A stretch of 29,764 nt of DNA from IMG/VR virus record IMGVR_UViG_3300042939_000785, positions 1 through 29,764 of that record, one strand, 5' to 3'. The notes beneath the pieces are model-generated. The model was not told where the DNA came from. It saw nothing but the letters and a program-made list of their open reading frames with translations, and searched no databases. The stretch comes from a virus. Within the stretch, counting starts at the first letter, position 1; the number at the start of each line of letters is the position of its first letter. This document shows, piece after piece, positions 2,788-29,764 of this stretch. The translations under genes were made by a program, and so were the position numbers.

Positions 2788-4683
2788 ATGCCAGGCATGG
2801 ATGATCAAGCCCTCGAAACCCGCTACGCACCCGGCACACGCGCAACCCGCGCGCTAAGCCTCGGCGGCGACCGCGCCGCGGTCGACCAAGAGGCGCGCAC
2901 CGTCACGCTGGCCTTCAGCAGTGAAGAGCCATACGAGCGTGGCTGGGGCATCGAGGTGCTCGACCACCAGGCCAGCAGCATCAAGATGGACCGCCTCACC
3001 AATGGCGGCCCGTTGCTGATGGATCACGACAGCCGCGACCAGGTCGGGGTGATCGAACAGGTGCAGATCGGCAAGGACCGGGTGGCCCGCGCCGTGGTGC
3101 GTTTCGGGAGAAGCGCGCGCGCCAATGAGGTCTTCCAAGACGTGATCGACGGCATCCGCCGCAACGTGTCGGTGGGCTACGTGATCCACGACGCCGTGCT
3201 CGAAGAAGAGCACGACGGTGTCGGCACCTACCGCGTGAAGTCGTGGGAGCCCTACGAGGTCTCGCTCGTCAGCGTGCCGGCCGATCCCACCGTCGGTGTC
3301 GGCCGCAGTGCCGAAGCCGCAGCTGTTGGTGCTGCCAGCCCCGCTACCCAACCCAAGGCCGGCGCACCGCTGGCCGCCACCCGTGGAGTGACCACCATGT
3401 CCGAGCAAGTCATCGACGCCGCCGCCGAGCGGCAGCAGGGCGCCACCGCCGAGCGCGGCCGCGTCGACACCATCATCGCCATCGGCGAAGAGTTCCGCGC
3501 CCAGGGCGTGGACAAGCTGGCCCAGGCCGCCGTGCGTGCGGGCACCCCGCTCGACGAGTTCCGCGCCCAGGCCATGGCCCACCTGGCCAAGGCCACCAAG
3601 CCCAACACCGACATCGGCCTCACGCAGAAGGAAGTGCAGCGCTTCAGCTTCGTGCGCGCGCTCAACGCCCTGGCCAACCCCGGCCACCGCAGCGCGCAAG
3701 AGGCGGCGGCCTTCGAGATCGAAGTCGGCCGCACCGCTGCCGAGAAGTCGGGCAAGGCCTCGCGCGGCATCATGGTGCCCACCGACGTGCTGCGCCGCGA
3801 CCTGCTGGTCGGCACCTCGACGGCGGGCGGCCACACCGTGGCCACCGATCTGCGTGCCGGCGACTTCATCGAGCTGCTGCGCAACCGCATGGTGCTCATG
3901 GGCATGGGCACGCAGATGCTCACGGGCCTGTCGGGCAACATCGCCATCCCGCGCGCCACCGGCGCCGGCGGTGCTTTCTGGGTGGCAGAAAACGCCGCCC
4001 CGACCGAAAGCCAGCAGGCCTTCGATCAGGTGACGATGTCGCCCAAGACGATGGGCGCGTTCACCGACATCAGCCGCAAGCTGCTGCTGCAGTCGAGCCT
4101 GGACGTCGAGGCCTTCGTGCGTGGCGACCTGGCCACGGTGCTGGCGCTCGAGCTGCAGCGTGCCGGCATCAACGGCTCGGGCTCGGGCGCTGAGCCGCGC
4201 GGCATCCTCAACGTCGTGGGCATCGGCTCCGTGGCAGGTGGCACGAACGGCGCGGTTCCGTCGTTCGCCAACATCGTGGCGCTGGAGACCGAGGTCGCGC
4301 AAGACAACGCCGACATCGGCACGCTGGGCTACCTCACCAACGCCCGCGTGCGTGGCCGCCTCAAGACGGTGGAGAAGGCTTCGTCCACGGCGCAGTTCCT
4401 GTGGGAAGCCGGCAACACGCCGCTGAACGGCTACCGCGCCGAAGTCACCAACGCGGTGCCCAGCAACCTGGTGAAGGGCAGCTCGGGCGCTGTGTGCTCG
4501 GCCATCATCTTCGGCAACTTCGCCGACCTGATCATCGGCATGTGGGGCGGCCTCGACCTGATGGTCGACCCCTACACCGGCAGCACCGCCGGCACCGTGC
4601 GTGTGGTCACGCTGCAAGACGTGGACATCGCCGTGCGCCGTGCCGAGAGCTTCTCGGCCATGGTCGACGCGCTCACCACCTGA
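2788..4683 (+). CDS. Fused HK97-type prohead protease and major capsid protein
   Basis: The 631-residue ORF joins two normally separate proteins. Residues ~30-175 are a U35/S78-type prohead protease: H80 in LLMDHDSRD and S128 in NVSVGY are the likely catalytic pair, followed by the conserved PYEVSLVSVPADPTVGVGR end. Residues ~204-631 form an HK97-fold major capsid protein, with a scaffold-like N-arm to ~residue 320 and a core containing IAIPRATGAGGAFWVAE and, near the end, DVDIAVRR. The protease would cut the delta domain during head maturation. An internal ATG at 3397 (M204) with its own Shine-Dalgarno site could also give free capsid subunit. Confidence 0.9.
   Translation: MPGMDDQALETRYAPGTRATRALSLGGDRAAVDQEARTVTLAFSSEEPYERGWGIEVLDHQASSIKMDRLTNGGPLLMDHDSRDQVGVIEQVQIGKDRVARAVVRFGRSARANEVFQDVIDGIRRNVSVGYVIHDAVLEEEHDGVGTYRVKSWEPYEVSLVSVPADPTVGVGRSAEAAAVGAASPATQPKAGAPLAATRGVTTMSEQVIDAAAERQQGATAERGRVDTIIAIGEEFRAQGVDKLAQAAVRAGTPLDEFRAQAMAHLAKATKPNTDIGLTQKEVQRFSFVRALNALANPGHRSAQEAAAFEIEVGRTAAEKSGKASRGIMVPTDVLRRDLLVGTSTAGGHTVATDLRAGDFIELLRNRMVLMGMGTQMLTGLSGNIAIPRATGAGGAFWVAENAAPTESQQAFDQVTMSPKTMGAFTDISRKLLLQSSLDVEAFVRGDLATVLALELQRAGINGSGSGAEPRGILNVVGIGSVAGGTNGAVPSFANIVALETEVAQDNADIGTLGYLTNARVRGRLKTVEKASSTAQFLWEAGNTPLNGYRAEVTNAVPSNLVKGSSGAVCSAIIFGNFADLIIGMWGGLDLMVDPYTGSTAGTVRVVTLQDVDIAVRRAESFSAMVDALTT
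3385..3399 (+). promoter_or_regulatory. Internal ribosome-binding site and start for separate capsid subunit
   Basis: Within the protease-capsid fusion gene a GGAG at 3385-3388 precedes an in-frame ATG at 3397 by 8 nt. The ATG falls exactly at the junction between the protease's low-complexity end and the capsid domain (MSEQVIDAAAERQ). A nested start would supply many capsid subunits per protease-capsid fusion, as nested genes do in lambda (C/Nu3). Use of the site is inferred. Confidence 0.5.
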
Positions 4684-6791: not shown

Positions 6792-8764
6792 CCCGCGCAC
6801 GCATTGCCATCGGCGCCACCGACGAGACCGCTGGCGCGTTCCAGGCCGTTCGCGGTCGGCTGCAGCAGCTCAGCGGCCAGGCGCAAGCCCTCACGGGCAG
6901 CTTCTCAGCGGTCGCCAGCGGCCTGGCGGCTGTGCTCGGTGGCGTGTCGCTCACGGCCTACTTCAAGCAGGTGGTCGACGGCATCGACCGGCTCAACGAC
7001 CTGAAGGACGCCACCGGTGCCAGCATTGGCAACCTCAGCGCGCTCGAGGACGTGGCGGCCCGCACGGGCACGAGCTTCGAGACGGTGCAGGCGGCGCTGG
7101 TCAAGTTCAACCAGGCGCTGGCCGGCGCCAAGCCTGGCAGCGCCGCGGCCGAGGTGTTCCGGCGCCTGGGCTTGAGCCTCGCGGATCTGCGAGACCAAGA
7201 CCCGGCCGAGGCTCTTCGCCAGACGGCCGTGGCGCTGGCGCGCTTCCCGGACGACGGCAACAAGGCCCGGGCCAGCATGGAGCTGTTCGGCCGCAGCCTT
7301 GGCCAAGTGGCGCCGCTGCTGGCCGATCTGGCCAAGAGTGGCGAGCTCAACGCCACCGTCACCGAAAAGCAAGCCGCCGAGGCCGAGGCCTTCAACATCA
7401 AGCTGGCGCAGTTCGCCAAAAACGCCACCGACGCGGGCCGTGCGGTGGCGGGCGCGCTGCTGCCGTCGATGAACAGCCTGTTGGAAGTGCTGAATCAGGC
7501 GGCCCGCAACCCGGGCGGCTTCTTTGCCGGCCTTGCCAAGCAGGCCGACCTGGGCGCACTGCGCGGGCAGATCGACGGGCTCAGGACGGCCGCCGAGCGC
7601 ATGGAGCCTGCTGTGGCTCGCGCACGTGCCACCTTGGCCGGCGGGCAGGGCAGCTTCCTGGCCCAAGACTCTGCGCGCCAGACCATCCGCAACTACGAGC
7701 GCCTGCAGTCGGCCGCCGCCGACTATCTGGCGCAGCTCGAGAAGATCACGCTGGCCGACAAGAAAGGCCGGCCGGCCAACGAGGGGGGCGGACGGCTGCG
7801 CCAGACGGAGAGCCTCGGCTTCATCGACGATGCAGCGCTGGCCCGCCAGCGGCAACAGGCGGCCGCGGTGCAACAGTACGGGCAACAGCTGCGCGACCAG
7901 ATCCTGGCCACGCAGCAGCTCAGCGAAGAAGAGAAGGCCCGCATCGCCATCAACCGCGGCCTGCTCGGCGTGCTCGACGCCAGCACCAAGGCCCAGGTGC
8001 TGGGCCTGGCCTCGGCGCTGGACAGCATCCGCGCGCAGCAGTCATCGGCGCGCGCCTTCGAGGCGCTGCAGCAGGAGGGCCTGGCCGTCACGCGCAGCTT
8101 GCAGACCGAGCAGGAGCGCCTGGCCGAGCAGGTGGCCCGAGCCGACGTGCTGGTGGCCGCCGGTGCCATCACCTGGGGCACCTACGGCCGCGCGGCCGTC
8201 GAGGGGCTGCAGCGGCTCACGAAGGAGGTCAACTCCATCCAGCTGCCGCGCCTGGAGGCGCTGGCCGAGCCGCTGCGTCAGGTGAGCGAGTTCGCCAGCC
8301 AGGCCGCCCGCAACATTGAGGACGCGCTCGGCGACAGCGTGCTGCAGGTCATCAAGGGCAACGCCGACGACATCGGCCAGATCTGGCAAGACCTGCTGCA
8401 GCGCATGGTGGCCCAGGCGCTGGCCGCCAAGCTGGGCGAGGCGCTCTTCGGCAACTACGGCAAAACCGGCGAGTTCGGCGGCCTGCTGGGCTTTCTGGGC
8501 TCCAGCGTGTTCGGCGGCGCGCGCGCCAACGGCGGCCCGGTGTCGGCCGGCCGCGCCTACCTGGTGGGCGAGCGCGGCCCCGAGATCGTGATGCCGGCGT
8601 CGGCCGGCACCGTGGTGCCCAACCACGCGCTGGGCGGCATGGCCGTCACCGTCAACGTGGCGGCCGGCGTCACCCGCGGCGAAGTCACCAACGCCGTGCA
8701 GCTGGGCATGCAGCACGTCGAATCCACCATCATGCAGCGGCTGCGCGCCGCCCGGGTGCTGTAG
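6788..8764 (+). CDS. Tape measure protein
   Basis: The 658-residue protein overlaps the chaperone frame by ATGA. Residues ~1-110 carry the IGATDETAGAFQAVRGRLQQL start and the SLTAYFKQVVDGIDRLNDLKDATG block common to tape measure proteins. The middle is long, helical and coiled-coil-like. The C-terminus has FGGARANGGPVSAGRAYLVG and ERGPEIVMPASAGTVVPN, the signature near the end of many siphophage tape measures, and ends in a helix (MQRLRAARVL). The protein sets tail length and enters the host on infection; at about 0.15 nm per residue the tail would be near 100 nm. Confidence 0.9.
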   Translation: MTRARIAIGATDETAGAFQAVRGRLQQLSGQAQALTGSFSAVASGLAAVLGGVSLTAYFKQVVDGIDRLNDLKDATGASIGNLSALEDVAARTGTSFETVQAALVKFNQALAGAKPGSAAAEVFRRLGLSLADLRDQDPAEALRQTAVALARFPDDGNKARASMELFGRSLGQVAPLLADLAKSGELNATVTEKQAAEAEAFNIKLAQFAKNATDAGRAVAGALLPSMNSLLEVLNQAARNPGGFFAGLAKQADLGALRGQIDGLRTAAERMEPAVARARATLAGGQGSFLAQDSARQTIRNYERLQSAAADYLAQLEKITLADKKGRPANEGGGRLRQTESLGFIDDAALARQRQQAAAVQQYGQQLRDQILATQQLSEEEKARIAINRGLLGVLDASTKAQVLGLASALDSIRAQQSSARAFEALQQEGLAVTRSLQTEQERLAEQVARADVLVAAGAITWGTYGRAAVEGLQRLTKEVNSIQLPRLEALAEPLRQVSEFASQAARNIEDALGDSVLQVIKGNADDIGQIWQDLLQRMVAQALAAKLGEALFGNYGKTGEFGGLLGFLGSSVFGGARANGGPVSAGRAYLVGERGPEIVMPASAGTVVPNHALGGMAVTVNVAAGVTRGEVTNAVQLGMQHVESTIMQRLRAARVL

Positions 8765-14470: not shown

Positions 14471-14876
14471 ACAAGTGCCCGGCATCGTGTCGGTGGCCGT
14501 GCTGCTGGCCACGGCCGCCCTGGGGCCCGACTTCGCGCTGGCCGTGGGTGCCTATGGCGCCATCATGCTGGGCTGGTTCGGCGGCGTGATGGTGGGCGTG
14601 TGGCGCATGCCGCCGGTGTCGCGCGGGCACCTGGCCTCCTTCGTGGTGGCCTCGCTGGTGGCCACCCTGGGCATCACCGTGCCCACGGCGCAGGTGCTGA
14701 CCGGCGTGCTGAGTTCCATGGTCCCGGCGGCTGCAGTCGTGCAGCCCACGGGGCTGCTGCTGCCGGTGGCGTTTTTGCTGCCGGCGATCGGGCATAGCTG
14801 GGTAGACGTGGCGCGATGGGTGTGGAGCCTGCGACGCCGCGCGGAACCCCGGCGCAATGAGGGCGATTCACCATGA
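14457..14876 (+). CDS. Phage membrane protein, candidate holin
   Basis: The ATG at 14457 is chosen because GGAG at 14447-14450 lies six bases upstream; an in-frame ATG at 14445 lacks such a site. The 139-residue product has three hydrophobic spans (IVSVAVLLATAALG to MLGWFGGVMVGVW, HLASFVVASLVATLGITV, and GLLLPVAFLLPAIG) and a charged C-terminus (SLRRRAEPRRNEG). Three spans plus a basic tail are compatible with a class I holin. Its stop overlaps the next start. Confidence 0.6.
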   Translation: MAPDEQVPGIVSVAVLLATAALGPDFALAVGAYGAIMLGWFGGVMVGVWRMPPVSRGHLASFVVASLVATLGITVPTAQVLTGVLSSMVPAAAVVQPTGLLLPVAFLLPAIGHSWVDVARWVWSLRRRAEPRRNEGDSP

Positions 14877-16071: not shown

Positions 16072-17364
16072 TCAGGCCGCTTTCGGCTTGCGGCGGCGCT
16101 GCAAGTCCTTGATCTGCAACACCTCGGCAGCCCGAGAACGTCTTGTGATTCTGGTCGTCGTGGGTTCGAGTCCCATCAGCCACCCCATCGGTTCCCCCTC
16201 GTAAGCGGCCTCTTCGGAGGCCGTTTTCGTTGGTGCCGCCGGCGCAGGTTGTGCCAGAGTTGTGCCACCGCCCGCCAGGTTGCCCGCCCACTGCGCCACG
16301 TGGCTGCGGCCCAAGTGGGCGTAGCGCTGCACCATGGCCAGGCTGGCCCAGCCGCCCAGCTCCTGCAGCACCGCCAGCGGCGTGCCCGATTGCACGTGCC
16401 AGCTGGCCCAGGTGTGGCGCAGGTCGTGGAAGCGCAGCCAGGGCAGCCCGGCGCGGGTGCAGGCCTTGCGCCACGCGGCGCTGCTGATCTTGCCGGTGGG
16501 CGTGTCGGCCACCTGGCGCGGCTTCTCTTCGGGCTTCTCGGCCGGCTCCCAGCGCGGCACCGGGAAGACCCAGCGCTTGTGCTGGCCGTGCTGCAGGGCC
16601 AGCACCTGCAGCGCCTCGGCATTGAGCGGCACGCTGTGGGCCTTGCCGGCCTTCATCTCGTCGCCCTCGAACCAGGCGACCGCGCGCGGCAGGTCGACTT
16701 GCTGCCACGTGAGCAGGCGGATGTTGGTTTCGCGCAGCCCGGTGGCCAGCGCGAAGGCCGCCATGGCGCGCAGGTGCGGCGGCAGCTCGGCCAGCAGATC
16801 GGCGGCCTGGTCGTGGGTGATCCAGGCCACGCGCTTGGCCGGCTCGGCGGCCTTGGTGATGGGCGGCACGGCGTCGAGCCACCCGCGCTTGTGGGCGTAG
16901 TGCAGCACGGCGCTGAGCTGGGCCATGTGCCGGTTGACGGTGGCGCCGCTGGTGGGCTTGGGTTCCGGCGGCGTGCGGCCAGCGGCCACAGCGCGCGCGA
17001 TCTCGCGGCGGTTGACGGCCTCAGCCTTGCGGGCCTTGCTGAGCTGGCGGATGACGGGATCGGTGATCTCGGCCAGCATGCGGCCGCGCAGGTGGGCGCT
17101 GAGCCAGCGCAGGACGCGCTTGATCTCTTCGATGCTGCGGCGGTGCTGGTGTTCCTCGAGCCAGGCCACGACGGCCTGGTCCCACGTCACCGCGGGGGCT
17201 TCGCCGAGCCGCCGGGCCCGCCAGAGATCGCGCGCAAGGGTGGCGGCGTATTCCGCCGCCGCGGCGCGGTCGCTGGTGCCAGTGCTGCGTCGAGCGCGCT
17301 GGCCTGCGATCTCGCCGAGGTCAACCCACCACGTGCCTCGTTGGCCGCGCTGATAGAGCCGCAT
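16072..17364 (-). CDS. int: Phage tyrosine-recombinase integrase
   Basis: The 430-residue protein starts with [16 protein letters not shown], the N-terminal beta domain typical of phage Int. A SAM-like core-binding region follows, and a catalytic domain shows R211 (TGLRETN), K at ~238-241, H313-x-x-R316 (FHDLRHTW), W339 in LGGW in place of the usual second His, and nucleophile Y348 (VQRYAHL). Residues 393-408 are encoded by the tRNA-His attP core (including [10 protein letters not shown]) and 409-430 by sequence beyond it, so the tail changes on integration. It is the last gene of the leftward unit, after the HTH gene. Confidence 0.93.
16143..16187 (+). other. attP core: 3' 45 nt of a tRNA-His gene
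   Basis: The segment starts with the anticodon loop TTGTGAT (GTG anticodon) and continues through the T arm GTGGG-TTCGAGT-CCCAT. It ends with the acceptor strand CAGCCAC, discriminator C and CCA. C at the discriminator position is peculiar to tRNA-His. No 5' half of a tRNA is present upstream, so this is an attachment core and not a gene. It lies between the lysis genes and int, within the int coding region, as expected for attP. Confidence 0.88.
16206..16227 (+). terminator. Rho-independent terminator beside attP core
   Basis: CGGCCTC, a TTCG tetraloop and GAGGCCG form a perfect 7-bp stem, followed by TTTT at 16224-16227. It would stop rightward transcription from the lysis genes. After integration it would lie just downstream of the restored tRNA-His gene, replacing the host terminator. 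Confidence 0.75.
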
Positions 17365-17548: not shown

Positions 17549-18658
17549 TCAGGTGGCCAGTGTGTCCAACGGGCTGAGCACGCCGCGGCCGCCCTGGGTG
17601 GCGGGCAGCACGTGGGTGTAGATCATGGTCGTCTCGACGTCTGCATGGCCCAGCAGCTGCTGAATGGTGCGGATGTCGTAACCCGCCTGCAGCAGGTGGG
17701 TGGCGAAGCTGTGGCGCAGGGTGTGCGGCGTGGCGGTCTTGTGGATGCGCGCCGCCTTCACGGCCTTGGCCATGAGGCGCTGGATGCCGTCTTCGTGCAG
17801 GTGGTGGCGGCGGATGGCGCCGGTGCGCGGGCAGGTGACGTAGTCCTCGGTGGCGAAGAGGAACTGCCAGCCCAGCTGCCGCGGCGCGGCCGGGTACTTG
17901 AGGTGCAGCGCGTGCGGCAGCTCCACGTCGGCGTGGCCGGTGGCCAGATCGACGGCGTGCCAGCGTTCGCGCTCGGCCAGCACCTCGCGCAGCTCGGGTG
18001 CCAGGCTCTGCGGCAGCATCACGGTGCGGTCTTTGTCGCCCTTGCCGGCGCGCACGGTGATGCTGCCGGTGGCGAAGTCGACATCCTTCACGCGCAGGCG
18101 CAGGCCCTCGAGCAGGCGCATGCCGGTGCCGTACAGCAGGCGCAGCACCAGGCCGCGGCGCGAGGCCTGCGGGATCTGCAGCCAGAGGCGGGCGATCTCG
18201 TCGCGGGTGAGCACGACGGGCAGGCGCTGGGGTTGCTTGGCGCGCACGATGTCGTCGACCCAGGGCAGTTCGATCTGCAGGGCGCAGCGGTACAGGAACA
18301 GCAGCGCCGCCAGGGCTTGGCGCTGGGTGCTGGCGCTGACGTTGCGCTCGGTGGCTAAGTGGCTGAGGAACTGGCCGATCTCGGGCGCGCCCATGTCGAT
18401 GGGGTGGCGCTTGCCGCTCCACAGCACGAATTGCCGCGTCCAGTGCCAGTAGGCCTGCTCGGTGCGGCGGCTGTAGTGGCGCGTGCGGATGGCCGACACC
18501 AGCAGGTGCTGCAGGTGGCCGCGCTGGCCAGGCTCGGGCGTGATGCTCGGCCTGGGCAGCGGGACATCCAGGCGCGCGCTGGCCGGCTCGCGGCTCAACG
18601 CGGCGCTGGTGCGGCGCGTAATGCTCGTGCTGGTGGGCGGTGCCTGGGTGATCGGCAT
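17549..18658 (-). CDS. intI: Integron integrase IntI
   Basis: The 369-residue tyrosine recombinase has the ordered catalytic residues R181 (GTGMRLLE), K206 (RAGKGDKDR), H312-x-x-R315 (PHTLRHSF), H338 (LLGHADV) and Y347 (MIYTHVL). It also has the IntI-specific extra segment at ~245-295, with LHLKYPAA, then [15 protein letters not shown], which separates integron integrases from XerC/D. The N-terminus is ~40 residues longer than usual ([13 protein letters not shown]), so the true start may lie downstream. It catalyses attI x attC and attC x attC exchange using the folded bottom strand of attC. It is intact and immediately upstream of xis. Confidence 0.95.
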
Positions 18659-21021: not shown

Positions 21022-21231
21022 TCACAGCAGCGCCTCATCATCCCGCGGCACCTGCCCGTGCAGATACCGCGACGGCATCCTCTCGCAGATCCTGCGCGCT
21101 GCCACCTCGGCCGGCGCCGGAAACGGCCAGCCCGGCACGATCGGCGCCACGCGCAGCAGGCCGCCGCGGCTGCCGTCGAGCTCGATGGCTTCGCGGCCGT
21201 CGGGCAGTTTCCAGCGGTCGCCTGCGCTCAT
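21022..21231 (-). CDS. Small phage early-operon protein, last before the integron
   Basis: The start at 21231 overlaps the methyltransferase stop in ATGA, giving 69 residues (MSAGDRWKLPDGREAIELDG, WPFPAPAEVAARRICERMPS). The beta-rich N-terminus and RRICERMPSRYLHG end resemble small phage proteins located beside methyltransferases. The TGA stop is adjacent to the last attC core, in the same TGAGGCCTAAC context as cassette 5. It may be the native operon end, or a cassette that lost its outer attC. Confidence 0.7.
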   Translation of the reverse strand: MSAGDRWKLPDGREAIELDGSRGGLLRVAPIVPGWPFPAPAEVAARRICERMPSRYLHGQVPRDDEALL

Positions 21232-22766
21232 GCTGCAGCCTTCAGCGCCACGCGCTCGACGAAGTTTGCACGCACGATGGCCGCAGCCACCGGCGGGCAG
21301 ACGCTGTTGCCGCACATGCGCACCTGGGCGGCCTTGCTCAACTGGCGGCCGTCGGCGCCGCGGTCGATCGCGTAGCTCTCCGGGAAGCCCTGCGCGCGGT
21401 ACAGCTCGCGCGGCTGCAGCATGCGCATGCCGATGTCGGCGATCACGTAGTCCTGGCCGGCCACGGTGACGAGGCCGAAGCGGTCGTGCGTGGTGGCCGT
21501 GGGCAGCGGCTTCGTGAGCTGGGCCGCCTGGTCGGTGCCGTAGTAGGCCAGCAGAAGCGCGCGCACTTCGGCGTGGTGCATGCCCTGCGCGCTGACCGTT
21601 CCCAGCGGCTCGCCGCTGTCGGCGCTGTTGCTGGTGCCGCGCAGCTTGGCGAGGTGTGACGTCACCAGCGAGTGGTGGTCGACGCTGGTGACGGTGCCGA
21701 TCGCATCGCTCAGCTTCGAGCCCACCACGCCGCCGTAGTGCTTGGCCAGGAACGCCGCCACCAGGCCGTGCTTCTGGCCGCTCACTAGGGTTCCGATGGG
21801 CTTGTCCAGGCCCGGCACGCGGGGCGCCTGGCCTTCGCGCTCGCCGTAGCCCGTCTGCACAAGCGTCGGCACCGCCAGGCAGTGCTCGGCCTTGCTGGTG
21901 ATGGTCGACAGCGGCTCGGTGGCCGGCTTGTCCTTGCCGGCGTCACCGTGCCCGGTGTGGCCGATGCGCACGATGAACGGCTCGGCGGCCTCAAGCACGA
22001 AGCGCTTGATGCCGTGGGCGATGCGGCGCAGCGTGGCGTCGGCCAGCGGGCGCTGGCGCTCGAAGATGCTCGGGCAGTCTAGGCTCCAGTCGATGCAGTC
22101 GGCCGCGGTGCGCCAGGGCTTCAGACCATTTCCGTGACGCCGCGAAAATGGTGCTCCGTGCGTGGGCTCGGGCCATGCGATCGGCTGGCCGTCGCGCCGC
22201 GCCACCAGAAACAGGCGCTTGCGGATGGTGGGCGCACCGAAGTCGCACGCGCGCAGCTCGCGCCACTCGACGGCGTACCCCAGGTTGCGCAGCTGCGCCA
22301 CCCAGCGCTGGAAGGTGAGGCCCTTGCGGTCAGGGCAGGGCCGGCCGTCGTCGCCGAGCGGGCCCCAGGTCTGGAACTCTTCGACGTTCTCCAGGCAGAT
22401 GATGCGCGGCTGCACTTCCTTGGCCCAGCGCACCACCACCCAGGCCAGGCCGCGAATCTTCTTCGACACGGGCTTGCCGCCCTTGGCCTTGCTGAAGTGC
22501 TTGCAGTCGGGCGACGCCCACAGCAGGCCCACGGGCCGGCCCTCGGTGACGGTGTGCGGGTCGACCTCGAAGACGTCGCTGACAAAGTGCCGCGTCTGCG
22601 GGTGGTTCGCCTGGTGCAGGCTCACCGCCTCGGGGTCGTGATTGATGGCGATGTCGACGTGCCGGCCGGTGGCCAACTCGATGCCGGTGCTGGCACCGCC
22701 GCCGCCGGCGAACAGGTCGACCATGAGCTCGTCGGCCAGCGGCAGGATGAACTGGCGGGCGATCAT
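21228..22766 (-). CDS. Phage DNA cytosine C5-methyltransferase
   Basis: The 512-residue protein has the ordered C5-MTase motifs: motif I DLFAGGGGASTG (17-28), motif IV SPDCKHFS with catalytic C88 (PDC in place of PPC, a phage variant), motif VI ENV (126-128), motif VIII RKRLFLVA (~182-189), and motif X near GNSVCPPVAAAIV. The region ~285-430 contains at least four repeats of the form KP(I/L)xTxxxxxxxLV, a modular target-recognition-like region. It transfers methyl from SAM to cytosine, probably to protect phage DNA from host restriction. It is coupled to both neighbours by ATGA. Confidence 0.92.
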   Translation of the reverse strand: MIARQFILPLADELMVDLFAGGGGASTGIELATGRHVDIAINHDPEAVSLHQANHPQTRHFVSDVFEVDPHTVTEGRPVGLLWASPDCKHFSKAKGGKPVSKKIRGLAWVVVRWAKEVQPRIICLENVEEFQTWGPLGDDGRPCPDRKGLTFQRWVAQLRNLGYAVEWRELRACDFGAPTIRKRLFLVARRDGQPIAWPEPTHGAPFSRRHGNGLKPWRTAADCIDWSLDCPSIFERQRPLADATLRRIAHGIKRFVLEAAEPFIVRIGHTGHGDAGKDKPATEPLSTITSKAEHCLAVPTLVQTGYGEREGQAPRVPGLDKPIGTLVSGQKHGLVAAFLAKHYGGVVGSKLSDAIGTVTSVDHHSLVTSHLAKLRGTSNSADSGEPLGTVSAQGMHHAEVRALLLAYYGTDQAAQLTKPLPTATTHDRFGLVTVAGQDYVIADIGMRMLQPRELYRAQGFPESYAIDRGADGRQLSKAAQVRMCGNSVCPPVAAAIVRANFVERVALKAAA

Positions 22767-26804: not shown

Positions 26805-28325
26805 ATGTCCCCTGCAGTGAGCGAAGCCCCGCAAGACACGAAGCGCCCGGCCGAGCCGCCATGGTCGCGCGAGGGCGAGCAGGCCGTGCTCGGCGCGCTG
26901 CTGCTCGACAACGGCGCCATGGCCATGGTGTCCGATCTGGTCACGCCGGCCAGCTTCTACCTGCACGAGCACAAGCAGGTGTTTCGCGCCATCGTCGAGC
27001 TGCTGAATGCGCGGCAGCTGGCCGACGTCATCACGGTGTGGGAGAAGCTCAAGTCGCTGGAGATCAACGACGAGGGCGTGGCCGATCTGCCCTACCTCAA
27101 CCAGCTGGCCCAGTGCGTGCCCTCGGCGCGCAACGCCAGGCGGTATGCCGAGATCGTGGCCGAGCTCGCCGCAGAGCGGGCGCTCATCGCCAGCCTGGAC
27201 GAAGCCACACGCATCGGCCGCGACGGCAAGCTCACGCTGGATGCCCGCTTCGAGCGCATCAGCGCCGAGCTGCGCAGGGCCGAGGCGCTGCGCCAAAACC
27301 CGAGCGGCAGCCGGGTGCCCATGCTCACGCTGCCCGCGCTGCAAAAGGCCGCCGCGGCCGTGCGCTGGCTGGTGAAGCACGTGGTGCCCTCCGACAGCAT
27401 CGGCATGCTGTTTGGTGGCTCGGGCACGTTTAAGTCGTTCATTGCGCTCGATGCCGCGCTGCACGTGGCTCACGGCCTGCCCTGGATGGGGCGTAAGACG
27501 ACACGCGGCTCGGTGATCTACATCGCGGCCGAGGGCGGCGCAGGGCTGTGGTCGCGCATCGACGCATGGCACCGACAGCGCAACCTCAGCGTCGACCATG
27601 CGCCGGTGCACGTGGTGCCCGTGGCTGTGGACCTGACAGTCGACGCCTGGCGTGTGGTGGAGGCGGCCCAGATGGCGGGCGTTGAGCCTGCGCTGGTGGT
27701 GGTCGACACGCTGAGCCAGACCTATGCCGGCGAAGAGAACAGCGCCAATGAGATGGCCGCCTATCTGCGCGAGCTGGGCGGGCGCTTCCGCCAGCTGTGG
27801 CAGTGCAGCGTGCTTCTCATCCACCATTCAGGCCACCAGGCCACCGAGCGGCCGCGGGGCAGCAGTGCCATCAGGGCGAACCTCGACTTCCTGCTGGGCG
27901 TGTTCCGAGACGAGCGCGAGATGCTGGCCACGGTGTCGTGCGTCAAGCAGAAGGACGGCGAGCTCTTCGACGATGCGGTCTTCAAGCTCACGGTCGAGCA
28001 GCTGGGCTTCGACGAAGACAACGACAAGGTCACGTCGCTTGTGGCGCGCCACCTGGGCACGCAAGACGCCATCCAGGACGCGCTGGCCGATGAGGCTGCA
28101 GCAGGCAGGGCAGGGCGGCAGAGCACCTTCATGTCGCTGGTGCAAAACGGCATGCTCGAGAAGGAGCTGCGCAAGCTGTTCTACGACACGCTGGTCGACC
28201 TCGATGCAGAAGCCCGTCGCAAGGCCTATGGCCGCGAACGCAAGCGGGCCGAGCAACGGGGCGACTTCGAGGTGGCCGAGGGCTTCATCCTCGACCTGCG
28301 CGGCATGAAGAAGAGGGGCGCGTGA
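26805..28325 (+). CDS. Replicative helicase: DnaB-N domain fused to RepA-type AAA_25 ATPase
   Basis: The 506-residue protein combines two families. Residues ~20-125 are a DnaB N-terminal domain (EGEQAVLGALLLDNGAMAMV, HKQVFRAIVELL, LPYLNQLAQCVPSARNARRY). Residues ~185-410 are a RecA-fold RepA/AAA_25 ATPase with Walker A GGSGTFKS (204-211), IYIAAEGGAG, Walker B ALVVVDTLS (D301) and HHSGH (~340-344). The hexameric helicase would load at the phage origin; DnaB-N normally contacts primase. It is followed by a GTCCCGG repeat cluster that may be its origin. Usual RepA proteins lack DnaB-N, so the fusion is noteworthy. Confidence 0.88.
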   Translation: MSPAVSEAPQDTKRPAEPPWSREGEQAVLGALLLDNGAMAMVSDLVTPASFYLHEHKQVFRAIVELLNARQLADVITVWEKLKSLEINDEGVADLPYLNQLAQCVPSARNARRYAEIVAELAAERALIASLDEATRIGRDGKLTLDARFERISAELRRAEALRQNPSGSRVPMLTLPALQKAAAAVRWLVKHVVPSDSIGMLFGGSGTFKSFIALDAALHVAHGLPWMGRKTTRGSVIYIAAEGGAGLWSRIDAWHRQRNLSVDHAPVHVVPVAVDLTVDAWRVVEAAQMAGVEPALVVVDTLSQTYAGEENSANEMAAYLRELGGRFRQLWQCSVLLIHHSGHQATERPRGSSAIRANLDFLLGVFRDEREMLATVSCVKQKDGELFDDAVFKLTVEQLGFDEDNDKVTSLVARHLGTQDAIQDALADEAAAGRAGRQSTFMSLVQNGMLEKELRKLFYDTLVDLDAEARRKAYGRERKRAEQRGDFEVAEGFILDLRGMKKRGA

Positions 28326-28486
28326 TGCAGGTGCTGAAGTGTCCCGGTTGTTACAAATCTGTCCCGGAAAGCGGGACAAAAGGGGCGGGACGGGACTCGC
28401 GCGCGCATAAGGAAACCGGGACATTGTCCCGTCCCGGTTTCTGTCCCGGTTGGGCTGTCCCGGTGTCCCGGTCTTGGGGTGGGTGA
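28325..28486 (+). CDS. Possible 53-residue ORF across repeat cluster
   Basis: An ATG at 28325 overlaps the helicase stop (TGATG), and the frame (MQVLKCPGCYKSVPESGTKG...) includes CPGC at its start. The rest is largely composed of the GTCCCGG repeats read in frame. The coding signal is weak; the stretch is better explained as a non-coding repeat region. Confidence 0.25.
   Translation: MQVLKCPGCYKSVPESGTKGAGRDSRAHKETGTLSRPGFCPGWAVPVSRSWGG
28341..28472. repeat. GTCCCGG/CCGGGAC repeat cluster, candidate replication origin
   Basis: GTCCCGGTT or close variants occur at 28341, 28361, 28431, 28443, 28457 and 28465, with inverted CGGGAC copies at ~28373, 28391 and 28417. AAACCGGGAC (28413-28422) and GTCCCGGTTT (28431-28440) form a 10-bp perfect inverted repeat. 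Iteron-like arrays next to a replicative helicase gene often mark phage origins; this function is inferred. Confidence 0.6.
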
Positions 28487-28493
28487 GGCAGGC

Positions 28494-29105
28494 ATGCGCA
28501 TCACCATCGAGACTAACTTCCCCCAGGTGCAGCGTGCACTGCAGGGCCTGCAGCGTGAGGTGGCCCAGCAGGCCACAGCGCGGGCTCTCAATGCCACCAT
28601 CGCCCAGGCCCGCACGCAGATGAGCCGGGAGATCCGGCGCGAGTACATGGTGGACAGGCGCTTCATAGGGCAACGGCTGCGGCTCAAGAAGGCCACGTTT
28701 CGCAATGGGCGGCTCGGCCTTGAGGCAGCGCTCGACGCTCAAGAGAAGCCCAGGTCTGCCAACGTGATCCGCTTTGCGGTCAAGAAGAAGAAAGGCAAGA
28801 AGGGGAAGGACGGCGTGCTGGTCAAGGTCAAGCGCGGCGAGCCCGCCAAGCTCATCCGCAACGCATTCATCGGCAACAAAGGGCGCACGGTGTTCAGCCG
28901 AGTAGACGGCACGAAGATGGCATCGCGCAGTGGCAGCAAGGGCGCCAAGCACCGCGAGCAGATCGAGCCGGTGCAGACGGTGGACGTGCCCCAGATGTTT
29001 AACGCCAGGCGCATCAAGGCGGCGGTGGTGGCGGCGATGGAGGCGCGCTTCCCTGCCATCTTCGAGCGCGAGCTGGCCTTCCTGCTCGGGCGGTTCAACC
29101 GATGA
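28494..29105 (+). CDS. Phage tail protein gpZ-like
   Basis: The start is placed at the ATG at 28494 (203 residues; an in-frame GTG lies at 28479). The N-terminus (ETNFPQVQRALQGLQREVAQ, ATARALNATIAQARTQMSRE) is the gpZ-type minor tail signature. A very basic segment (VKKKKGKKGKDG) follows, then a C-terminal VVAAMEARFPAIFERELAFL helix. In lambda gpZ is needed to position DNA and join tails. Here it lies after the replication gene and before an HNH gene, at the likely start of the late region, away from its usual tail location. Confidence 0.75.
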   Translation: MRITIETNFPQVQRALQGLQREVAQQATARALNATIAQARTQMSREIRREYMVDRRFIGQRLRLKKATFRNGRLGLEAALDAQEKPRSANVIRFAVKKKKGKKGKDGVLVKVKRGEPAKLIRNAFIGNKGRTVFSRVDGTKMASRSGSKGAKHREQIEPVQTVDVPQMFNARRIKAAVVAAMEARFPAIFERELAFLLGRFNR

Positions 29106-29764
29106 AGACGATTCAGCTTAGTGGCAAGCACGCAGTGGGAAAGCATGCCTATTGCATGGTTGACGATGACGTCTACGAAAGGCTTTCTCAGCACGCCTGG
29201 AAAGCAAAGCCGAATGGCAGCGGCACCCATGTGTACGCGGTGCGCAACGTGTGGAGGAATGGCGTCTGCACCATGGTTCGAATGCACCGCGCCGTTCTTG
29301 AGTACGACGGAGAACTAGACGTTGACCACATCAACGGCAACACCATGGACAACCGGCGGGTCAACCTTAGAGCCGTTCCCAGGGCGTGGAACGTTAGGAA
29401 CACAGAGTTCTATAGGTCCGTCGGTGGCCCATACACGCCATGGCCACCGAAAGACAGATCGGCTTACAAGCGTGTGTCTCTGCCAAAGCCTGATGTCTTC
29501 GGTGTCTGTGCGCACTGTGCTGCCCAGTTTGTGAAGAAGGCGGAGCGTCACCTCTACTGCTGCGAGTCCTGTAAAGACGCGGCGCGCAAGTTTGTGCCAA
29601 TGCAGAAAGTGTGTCAGGGGTGCGCGGGCCTGTTCACTGCCAATCGCAGCGACAAGATCCACTGCAGCGCCAAGTGCAAGAACGCCAGCAACCGGCGCAA
29701 GGCAGCAGATGTGCAGCCCGCAAAAGGTACTTCCCAGCCCCTCCCAACGCGGGTGCGAAACGAC
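29102..29764 (+). CDS. HNH homing endonuclease with two zinc-ribbon modules, truncated at window end
   Basis: The ATG at 29102 overlaps the gpZ-like stop (ATGA), and the frame is open to the right edge (221 residues visible). The HNH core shows MHRAVLEYDGELDVDHINGN, then DNRRVNLRAV, with the His and Asn ligands. A C-terminal region has two Cys knuckle pairs (CAHCAAQF...CCESCKDAARKF and CQGCAGLF...CSAKCKNASNRRK) that may bind zinc. Base composition appears less GC-rich than in the phage genes. HNH genes near terminase are common; the downstream gene should be terminase. Alternatively it could be a free-standing mobile endonuclease. Confidence 0.82.
   Translation, partial: MKTIQLSGKHAVGKHAYCMVDDDVYERLSQHAWKAKPNGSGTHVYAVRNVWRNGVCTMVRMHRAVLEYDGELDVDHINGNTMDNRRVNLRAVPRAWNVRNTEFYRSVGGPYTPWPPKDRSAYKRVSLPKPDVFGVCAHCAAQFVKKAERHLYCCESCKDAARKFVPMQKVCQGCAGLFTANRSDKIHCSAKCKNASNRRKAADVQPAKGTSQPLPTRVRND

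Follow-up and report, generated by a model that had tools for sequence, protein, structure and literature searches.

Immediately behind the gene for a DnaB-type helicase, the window (the whole stretch analysed here, a 29.8-kb virus record) carries a dense array of short repeats. These repeats are probably iterons for the helicase encoded upstream of them, and the array is most likely the replication origin of the phage, with the helicase as its own initiator, a reading held with considerable confidence. To judge from alignments and a structural model, the helicase itself very probably reads the repeats through a C-terminal winged helix, since residue 473 of this domain covaries with the repeat word in 48/48 near relatives. 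The unexpected part, as far as comparison of relatives indicates, is that a single residue covaries with a single base, and that whole arrays are rewritten in step. No paper on this array-helicase pair was found among open-licence PMC papers.

The features of the locus are given in Table 1. GTCCCGG occurs seven times in 131 bp (28341-28471), six times forward and once in reverse, and the shorter core GGGAC/GTCCC at 11 sites between 28341 and 28469, in both orientations. An earlier sequence-only reading, which had claimed at least six direct copies within 132 bp together with inverted copies, is borne out by these counts. The array clustering is far beyond chance: seven copies per 132 bp are observed, while 500 dinucleotide shuffles never gave more than 3. 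Elsewhere in the window there is one further copy only (at 14721), and the window total of 8, against a shuffle mean of 6.95, is unremarkable for such GC-rich DNA. The densest 7-mer of the window is CGGGACA/TGTCCCG, with 8 non-overlapping copies (3-5 in 60 shuffles). A 10-bp perfect palindrome, also claimed for this place, is absent; the longest contiguous palindromes of the array are of 8 bp (CGCGCGCG and GCGCGCGC, at 28398-28406), and 11-bp inverted repeats with a spacer exist. The array begins 15 bp behind the helicase stop, which ends at 28325, so that the two do adjoin, as had been stated. The next gene, which is tail-completion/minor-tail-like, starts with GTG at 28479 or ATG at 28495. 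The array has a GC content of 63% with one short AT-rich spacer, and no clear AT-rich unwinding element was seen in it. DnaA-like boxes show no enrichment (allowing one mismatch, 6 were found where 7.6 were expected), and there is one terminator-like match at the array, against 0.9 expected.

Table 1. Positions of the repeats, the helicase gene and its predicted C-terminal domain in the window
Feature	Position	Strand	Basis or remark
DnaB-type phage helicase, 506 aa	26805..28325	+	Pfam, profile, AlphaFold model
C-terminal winged helix (about aa 438-497), proposed iteron-binding domain	28116..28295	+	AlphaFold
Predicted winged-helix elements	H438-445, H452-462, H468-485, strands 488-491 and 494-497 (aa)		AlphaFold of aa 392-506
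Codons of R472 (linked to word base 1) and K473 (word base 2)	28218..28223	+	third helix, the putative recognition helix
Iteron array	28341..28471	.	11 GGGAC cores, 7 in full GTCCCGG/CCGGGAC
GTCCCGG copies	28341, 28361, 28431, 28443, 28457, 28465	+	exact matches
GTCCCGG copy	28416-28422	-	exact match
Cores as GTCCC	28341, 28361, 28426, 28431, 28443, 28457, 28465		
Cores as GGGAC	28373, 28387, 28392, 28418		
AT-rich spacer TTGTTACAAATCT	28348..28360	.	separates iterons 1 and 2
Alternating TCGCGCGCGCA tract within array	28397..28407	.	
Perfect 11-bp inverted repeat, 8-nt loop	28412-28422/28431-28441	.	GAAACCGGGAC...GTCCCGGTTTC, built from iterons and flanks
Perfect 11-bp inverted repeat, 29 nt between arms	28386-28396/28426-28436		

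By profile and predicted fold, the window helicase has both a DnaB N-terminal domain and a RecA-like ring-helicase fold. Its only Pfam matches are DnaB_N (aa 18-120; PF00772, 6.6e-26) and AAA_25 (aa 179-345; PF13481, 9.9e-33), with no primase domain among them. In the family profile the N-terminal part matches DnaB chains in the PDB and the helicase part matches RSF1010 RepA (PDB 1g8y, 8.1e-5). The full-length AlphaFold model (pLDDT 91.7) resembles DnaB with an extra C-terminal domain, and each of the 50 listed Foldseek matches is a DnaB-type helicase. When aa 392-506, comprising this domain and the end of the helicase core, were modelled separately (pLDDT 90.4), three helices and a beta hairpin were predicted. 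In a second look, structure matches of the domain were mostly to winged-helix proteins (Z 9.3 for the ORC chain 4xgc_C), a common fold that permits no family call. For the C-terminal domain, Foldseek found nothing below 0.001, and a PDB sequence search with it gave six weak matches only (two designed proteins at 0.0011; ribosomal L10e at 0.14 or worse).

A first helicase search returned 23 viral and 2 bacterial-contig loci, most with a repeat array behind the helicase stop, and with differing words (GTCCCG, GTCCCT, GCGTGACA, GGTGACA and others). The set was enlarged by further scans, keeping loci with a helicase-profile score >250 (265 loci), and arrays were called by a Poisson criterion on NNNACA hexamers. 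In earlier steps L043 had been left out, and L077 and L107 showed no stop. For a non-redundant set, one locus per 85%-identity cluster was retained, namely that with the strongest array, a choice that favours array-bearing loci; one exception to the rule described below, L149, was dropped by this step and is treated separately. An array is found behind the helicase in 55 of the 76 non-redundant loci, window included, and is built from one of five words: GGGACA (31 loci), GTGACA (17), CGGACA (4), GGCACA (2) and CGCACA (1), with others farther out. The remaining 21 loci have no array by the Poisson criterion, and 19 of these score under 400 on the helicase profile. The other two do have arrays, which the criterion missed: L029 shows 12 GGGAC cores and its word ends in G, and in L203 the array begins 380 bp behind the stop. 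Comparison across related phages, which had been suggested as a check, shows that many keep the array in the same place while the words differ. Distant loci with Q in the helix yet no array by the criterion are L104, L108 and L180, and further such cases are L351 and L368.

The arrays share a common design. Their median copy number is 12, and the first two copies, if in the same orientation, lie 20-22 bp apart in 38/50 arrays, which is about two helical turns; in the window the distance from start to start is 20 bp, the family mode being 21. Multiple short copies in helical phase beside a helicase gene, a feature of iteron type, are thus present. CGCGCGC or GCGCGCG occurs in 35/55 arrays, the density being 8.2 per kb in arrays and 1.4 per kb in the rest of the loci. 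Among named phages, Idiomarinaceae phage 1N2-2 has 11 copies of GGTACA and Alteromonas phage PB15 has 13 copies of GGTTCA behind their helicase-family genes, which are annotated as a primase-helicase and a TOPRIM protein, respectively; the array lies at about 34.2 kb in the 1N2-2 record and at about 19.75 kb in that of PB15. No array was seen behind the helicase in Vibrio phage 1.210.O, Caulobacter phage GB2A or MW202475, and none was detected by simple count behind the Salmonella houtenae gene. In bacterial genomes, no match at 1e-60 was found among the other 398 drawn from the order of G002 or the other 397 drawn from the order of G001. A third set of 71 distant loci gave a hexamer score of at least 6 behind the stop in 46/71 regions, against 0/67 inside the gene and 0/62 further downstream, with many different words.

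Several distant loci deserve mention in their own right. Distant RepA-like helicases (L375-L448) are followed by other arrays, e.g. AAATGG, GTAACA, GAGACA and ATTCCG. A more distant AAA_25-type helicase with a different C-terminus (L028) has a TTCGCC array of 11 copies behind its stop at 7017. The same design is seen in L295 (NZ_CP031350, 32094-37867), where a helicase RepA-family gene is followed by 6 copies of AAGTGAG; the surroundings include SSB, PerC-like and major capsid genes, and the element is presumably a capsid-forming satellite.

In 14/14 longer records, the word forms one cluster behind the helicase (3 to 11 exact copies), other copies being scattered; occurrence of the repeats elsewhere as regulatory sites, which had been named as an outcome that would speak against an origin, was thus not seen. 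GC skew, proposed earlier as a check, does not change sign at the array of the window and leaves the origin undecided. In the two complete relatives, PB15 and 1N2-2, detrending places the skew minimum immediately upstream of the helicase gene, at a distance of 2.1-2.5 kb from the array. GC skew does not mark the array and was set aside as uninformative.

The link between protein and repeat comes from covariation, which was computed over the helicase columns. Among 48 arrays (31 GGGACA and 17 GTGACA, window included), the column of K473 (K477 in stop-to-stop numbering) separates GGGACA (K/R) from GTGACA (Q) arrays in 48/48 cases by leave-one-out, the best of 338 helicase columns, the next best reaching 39/48. 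K473 sits in the third helix of the winged helix, a domain that is confidently predicted. The neighbouring column, residue 472, has K/R in 50/50 G-first arrays and S, A, Q, Q or Y in 5/5 C-first arrays of the non-redundant set, with exceptions outside it. When the winged-helix columns were left out of the tree, parsimony counted 12 changes of the two-state word. Residue 473 matches the word in 7/7 pairs on well-supported branches (p 0.016), and residue 472 agrees with the first base in 5/5 tree pairs (p 0.0625, too few for significance). The arrays are also homogenised: the 31 GGGACA arrays hold 290 copies of GGGACA and none of GTGACA, and the 17 GTGACA arrays hold 168 of GTGACA and none of GGGACA. 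Within the near family, the alignments suggest that residue 473 pairs with base 2 (K/R with G, Q with T), while residue 472 tends to go with base 1. This comparison gives good support to the earlier proposal of the repeats as binding sites of an initiator.

The rule relating residues to bases was fixed before new loci were examined. It is written for A followed by Y, F or W after X, another pair being present in L135, L143, L162, L169, L173, L176, L205 and L259, of which L169, L173 and L176 are close relatives of one another. A second set comprised 273 parsed loci, 47 of them new; 250 bp behind the stop and an unseen sequence of the last 60 residues were needed, and the residues were read by eye from the protein tails. 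An array was present in 17/47 new loci, and the rule was right in 16 of these 17 (15 GGGACA, 1 GTGACA), where a constant guess of GGGACA would score 15/17. The single miss is L149, with R-K and CGGACA; its array (3010-3160) is mixed, containing some GGGACA and AGGACA besides CGGACA, and may be an intermediate of a word change. The rule also fits both plasmid-collection records with a readable helix, from Pseudorhodobacter (Q, GTGACA) and Azospirillum (K, GGGACA).

Among the distant loci of the third set, the rule was right in 12 of 26 with a readable helix covered by it and a word score above 4. Where K follows K or R, base 2 is still G in 14/14 cases (12 GGGACA, 2 CGGACA). The misses L344 and L374 have R-K with CGGACA as the top word, and L446 has N-K with TGGACA. 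D-K occurs with GAGACA in 3/3 cases (L392, L433, L436), so that K here meets A at base 2. V or M goes with GTAACA in 8/8, not with the predicted GGCACA, and GTGACA arrays were absent from two loci with Q. Mixed arrays were seen in L371-L374, L378, L380 and L381. A single universal base-residue code was rejected on the 12/26 result. Since 16/17 closer loci were predicted correctly as against 12/26 distant ones, the simple code is limited to the near family, judging from these alignments; distant residues and words still form recurrent pairs.

The most straightforward mechanism would be as follows. The winged helix would use its third helix to read the hexamer GGGACA (TGTCCC on the complementary strand), and helicase subunits would gather on the array, where the median of 12 sites would suit two hexamers. 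We infer that the helicase would then open the duplex at the array and load without a separate initiator. A word changed in all copies together with residue 473 would leave each phage with an origin that answers only to its own helicase. Of the earlier proposal of a phage origin at the array, the initiator-site part is well supported, while origin activity is suggested by the putative helicase binding, the phasing of ca. 21 bp, the position behind the helicase gene, and the precedent of the SaPIs as described in the available part of PMC7581432. Counting against this account are the GC skew, the lack of a clear AT-rich unwinding element and of surplus DnaA-like boxes, the poor fit of the rule in distant loci, the mixed arrays, and the 21 non-redundant loci in which the criterion finds no array.

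An unlikely alternative is that the array is an operator, bound by the helicase or a neighbour in order to regulate downstream genes rather than replication. Binding alone would yield the same covariation, and the array does lie upstream of the next gene. However, it stands behind the helicase gene, not before it, and a consensus scan of 28000-28900 found no sigma-70-like promoter. Moreover, the gene behind the array varies while the array persists (tail completion/minor tail in the window, L007 and L030, RusA-like resolvases in L018 and L022).

Very improbable is a role of the element as a transcribed or single-stranded structure, i.e. a hairpin for priming, termination or packaging, with the iterons as its stems. 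Perfect stems of at least 7 with a loop of 3-8 are found in 43/55 arrays, above the controls (8/53 stretches inside genes and 32/275 shuffled arrays), and in pRN1 a stem-loop origin lies behind the rep gene (available part of PMC4234260). These stems follow in part from the word being present in both orientations, though, many copies are plain direct repeats, and the strongest signal is the match between base and amino acid; the origin may well include a hairpin as a further part. That some other host or phage protein binds the array, the helicase residue merely hitchhiking, is equally hard to credit: covariation was computed in helicase columns only and the locus flanks are of limited length, yet the word has switched repeatedly and independently together with residue 473, that residue lies in the predicted recognition helix, and apart from the helicase no protein is common to all 26 loci compared within these flanks, the commonest occurring in 13/26.

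The proposed initiator-origin pair combines features of several known systems. In RSF1010 (IncQ), a separate protein, RepC, binds the iterons; RepA of this plasmid has a related RecA-like helicase domain, whereas the window helicase carries the putative DNA-binding domain within its own chain. Bacterial DnaB has a similar N-terminal domain and ring-helicase fold, to which the window protein adds the C-terminal winged helix and a linked iteron array. The alpha protein of phage P4 combines a helicase with an origin-binding domain and has short iterons, an arrangement that is predicted here as well. It differs in its fused primase, a Toprim domain according to the available part of PMC4234260, no primase domain being found in the window protein.

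A close parallel is provided by SaPI Rep (and SCCmec Cch2), an initiator helicase with short repeats directly downstream of its own gene, where the window array is likewise placed. In the available part of PMC7581432, the C-terminal domain of Rep is described as recognising these iterons, which Rep appears to bind as two hexamers. The same part gives the Rep/Cch cores as DUF927 or Primase_Cterm/D5-like helicase families, while the core in the window is DnaB_N plus RecA-like AAA_25, and it presents no residue-level code for SaPIs. By analogy, the best reading is that the array would work like SaPI Rep/ori on a DnaB-type core. Initiator DNA-binding domains and iterons also covary or diversify together in PLE RepA/ori facing ICP1 Odn and in geminivirus Rep (available parts of PMC8263062 and PMC12548392). 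There the initiators belong to other families (RepA_N in PLE RepA; geminivirus Rep), and in PLEs the exchange affects an entire RepA_N domain along with the origin, instead of a single residue. An origin-directed nuclease is thought to drive the origin swaps of PLE satellites (PMC8263062, same part), and geminivirus iterons are described as diversifying (PMC12548392, same part); both offer precedents for the change of the word.

With slightly less than even confidence, a wider reading can be proposed. Phage helicases of DnaB/RepA type may include a large group, undescribed to date, with its own origin-reading winged helix and ca. 12 downstream iterons, in which origin identity would be set by a few recognition-helix residues and whole arrays would have been rewritten with the protein many times. 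Its code would depend on context, since positions 472-473 pair with other words farther out (D-K with GAGACA; K-V and K-M with GTAACA). Confidence in this reading was lowered slightly because the simple rule fails in distant relatives. The pressure for array rewriting would perhaps come from satellites, origin-directed nucleases or rival phages.

If true, the replication start of phages in this helicase group would be predictable from sequence, as would, in the near family, the word read by the helicase. There would then be a naturally occurring set of initiator-origin pairs that differ in one residue and one base, with mixed arrays (L149, L371-L381) as possible intermediates. How a replicon changes its origin specificity without loss of function, when every copy must change, would become directly testable. 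It would also suggest that a DnaB-type helicase need not rely on a separate initiator.

Among the other genes of the window are a C-5 cytosine-specific DNA methylase (21228-22766, minus strand; PF00145, 2.4e-35) and two neighbouring genes for phage integrases (tyrosine recombinases; 16072-17364 and 17549-18658), both on the minus strand. An HNH endonuclease-like gene (29102-29764, plus strand) lies beside the minor tail-like gene downstream of the array and runs off the end of the record.
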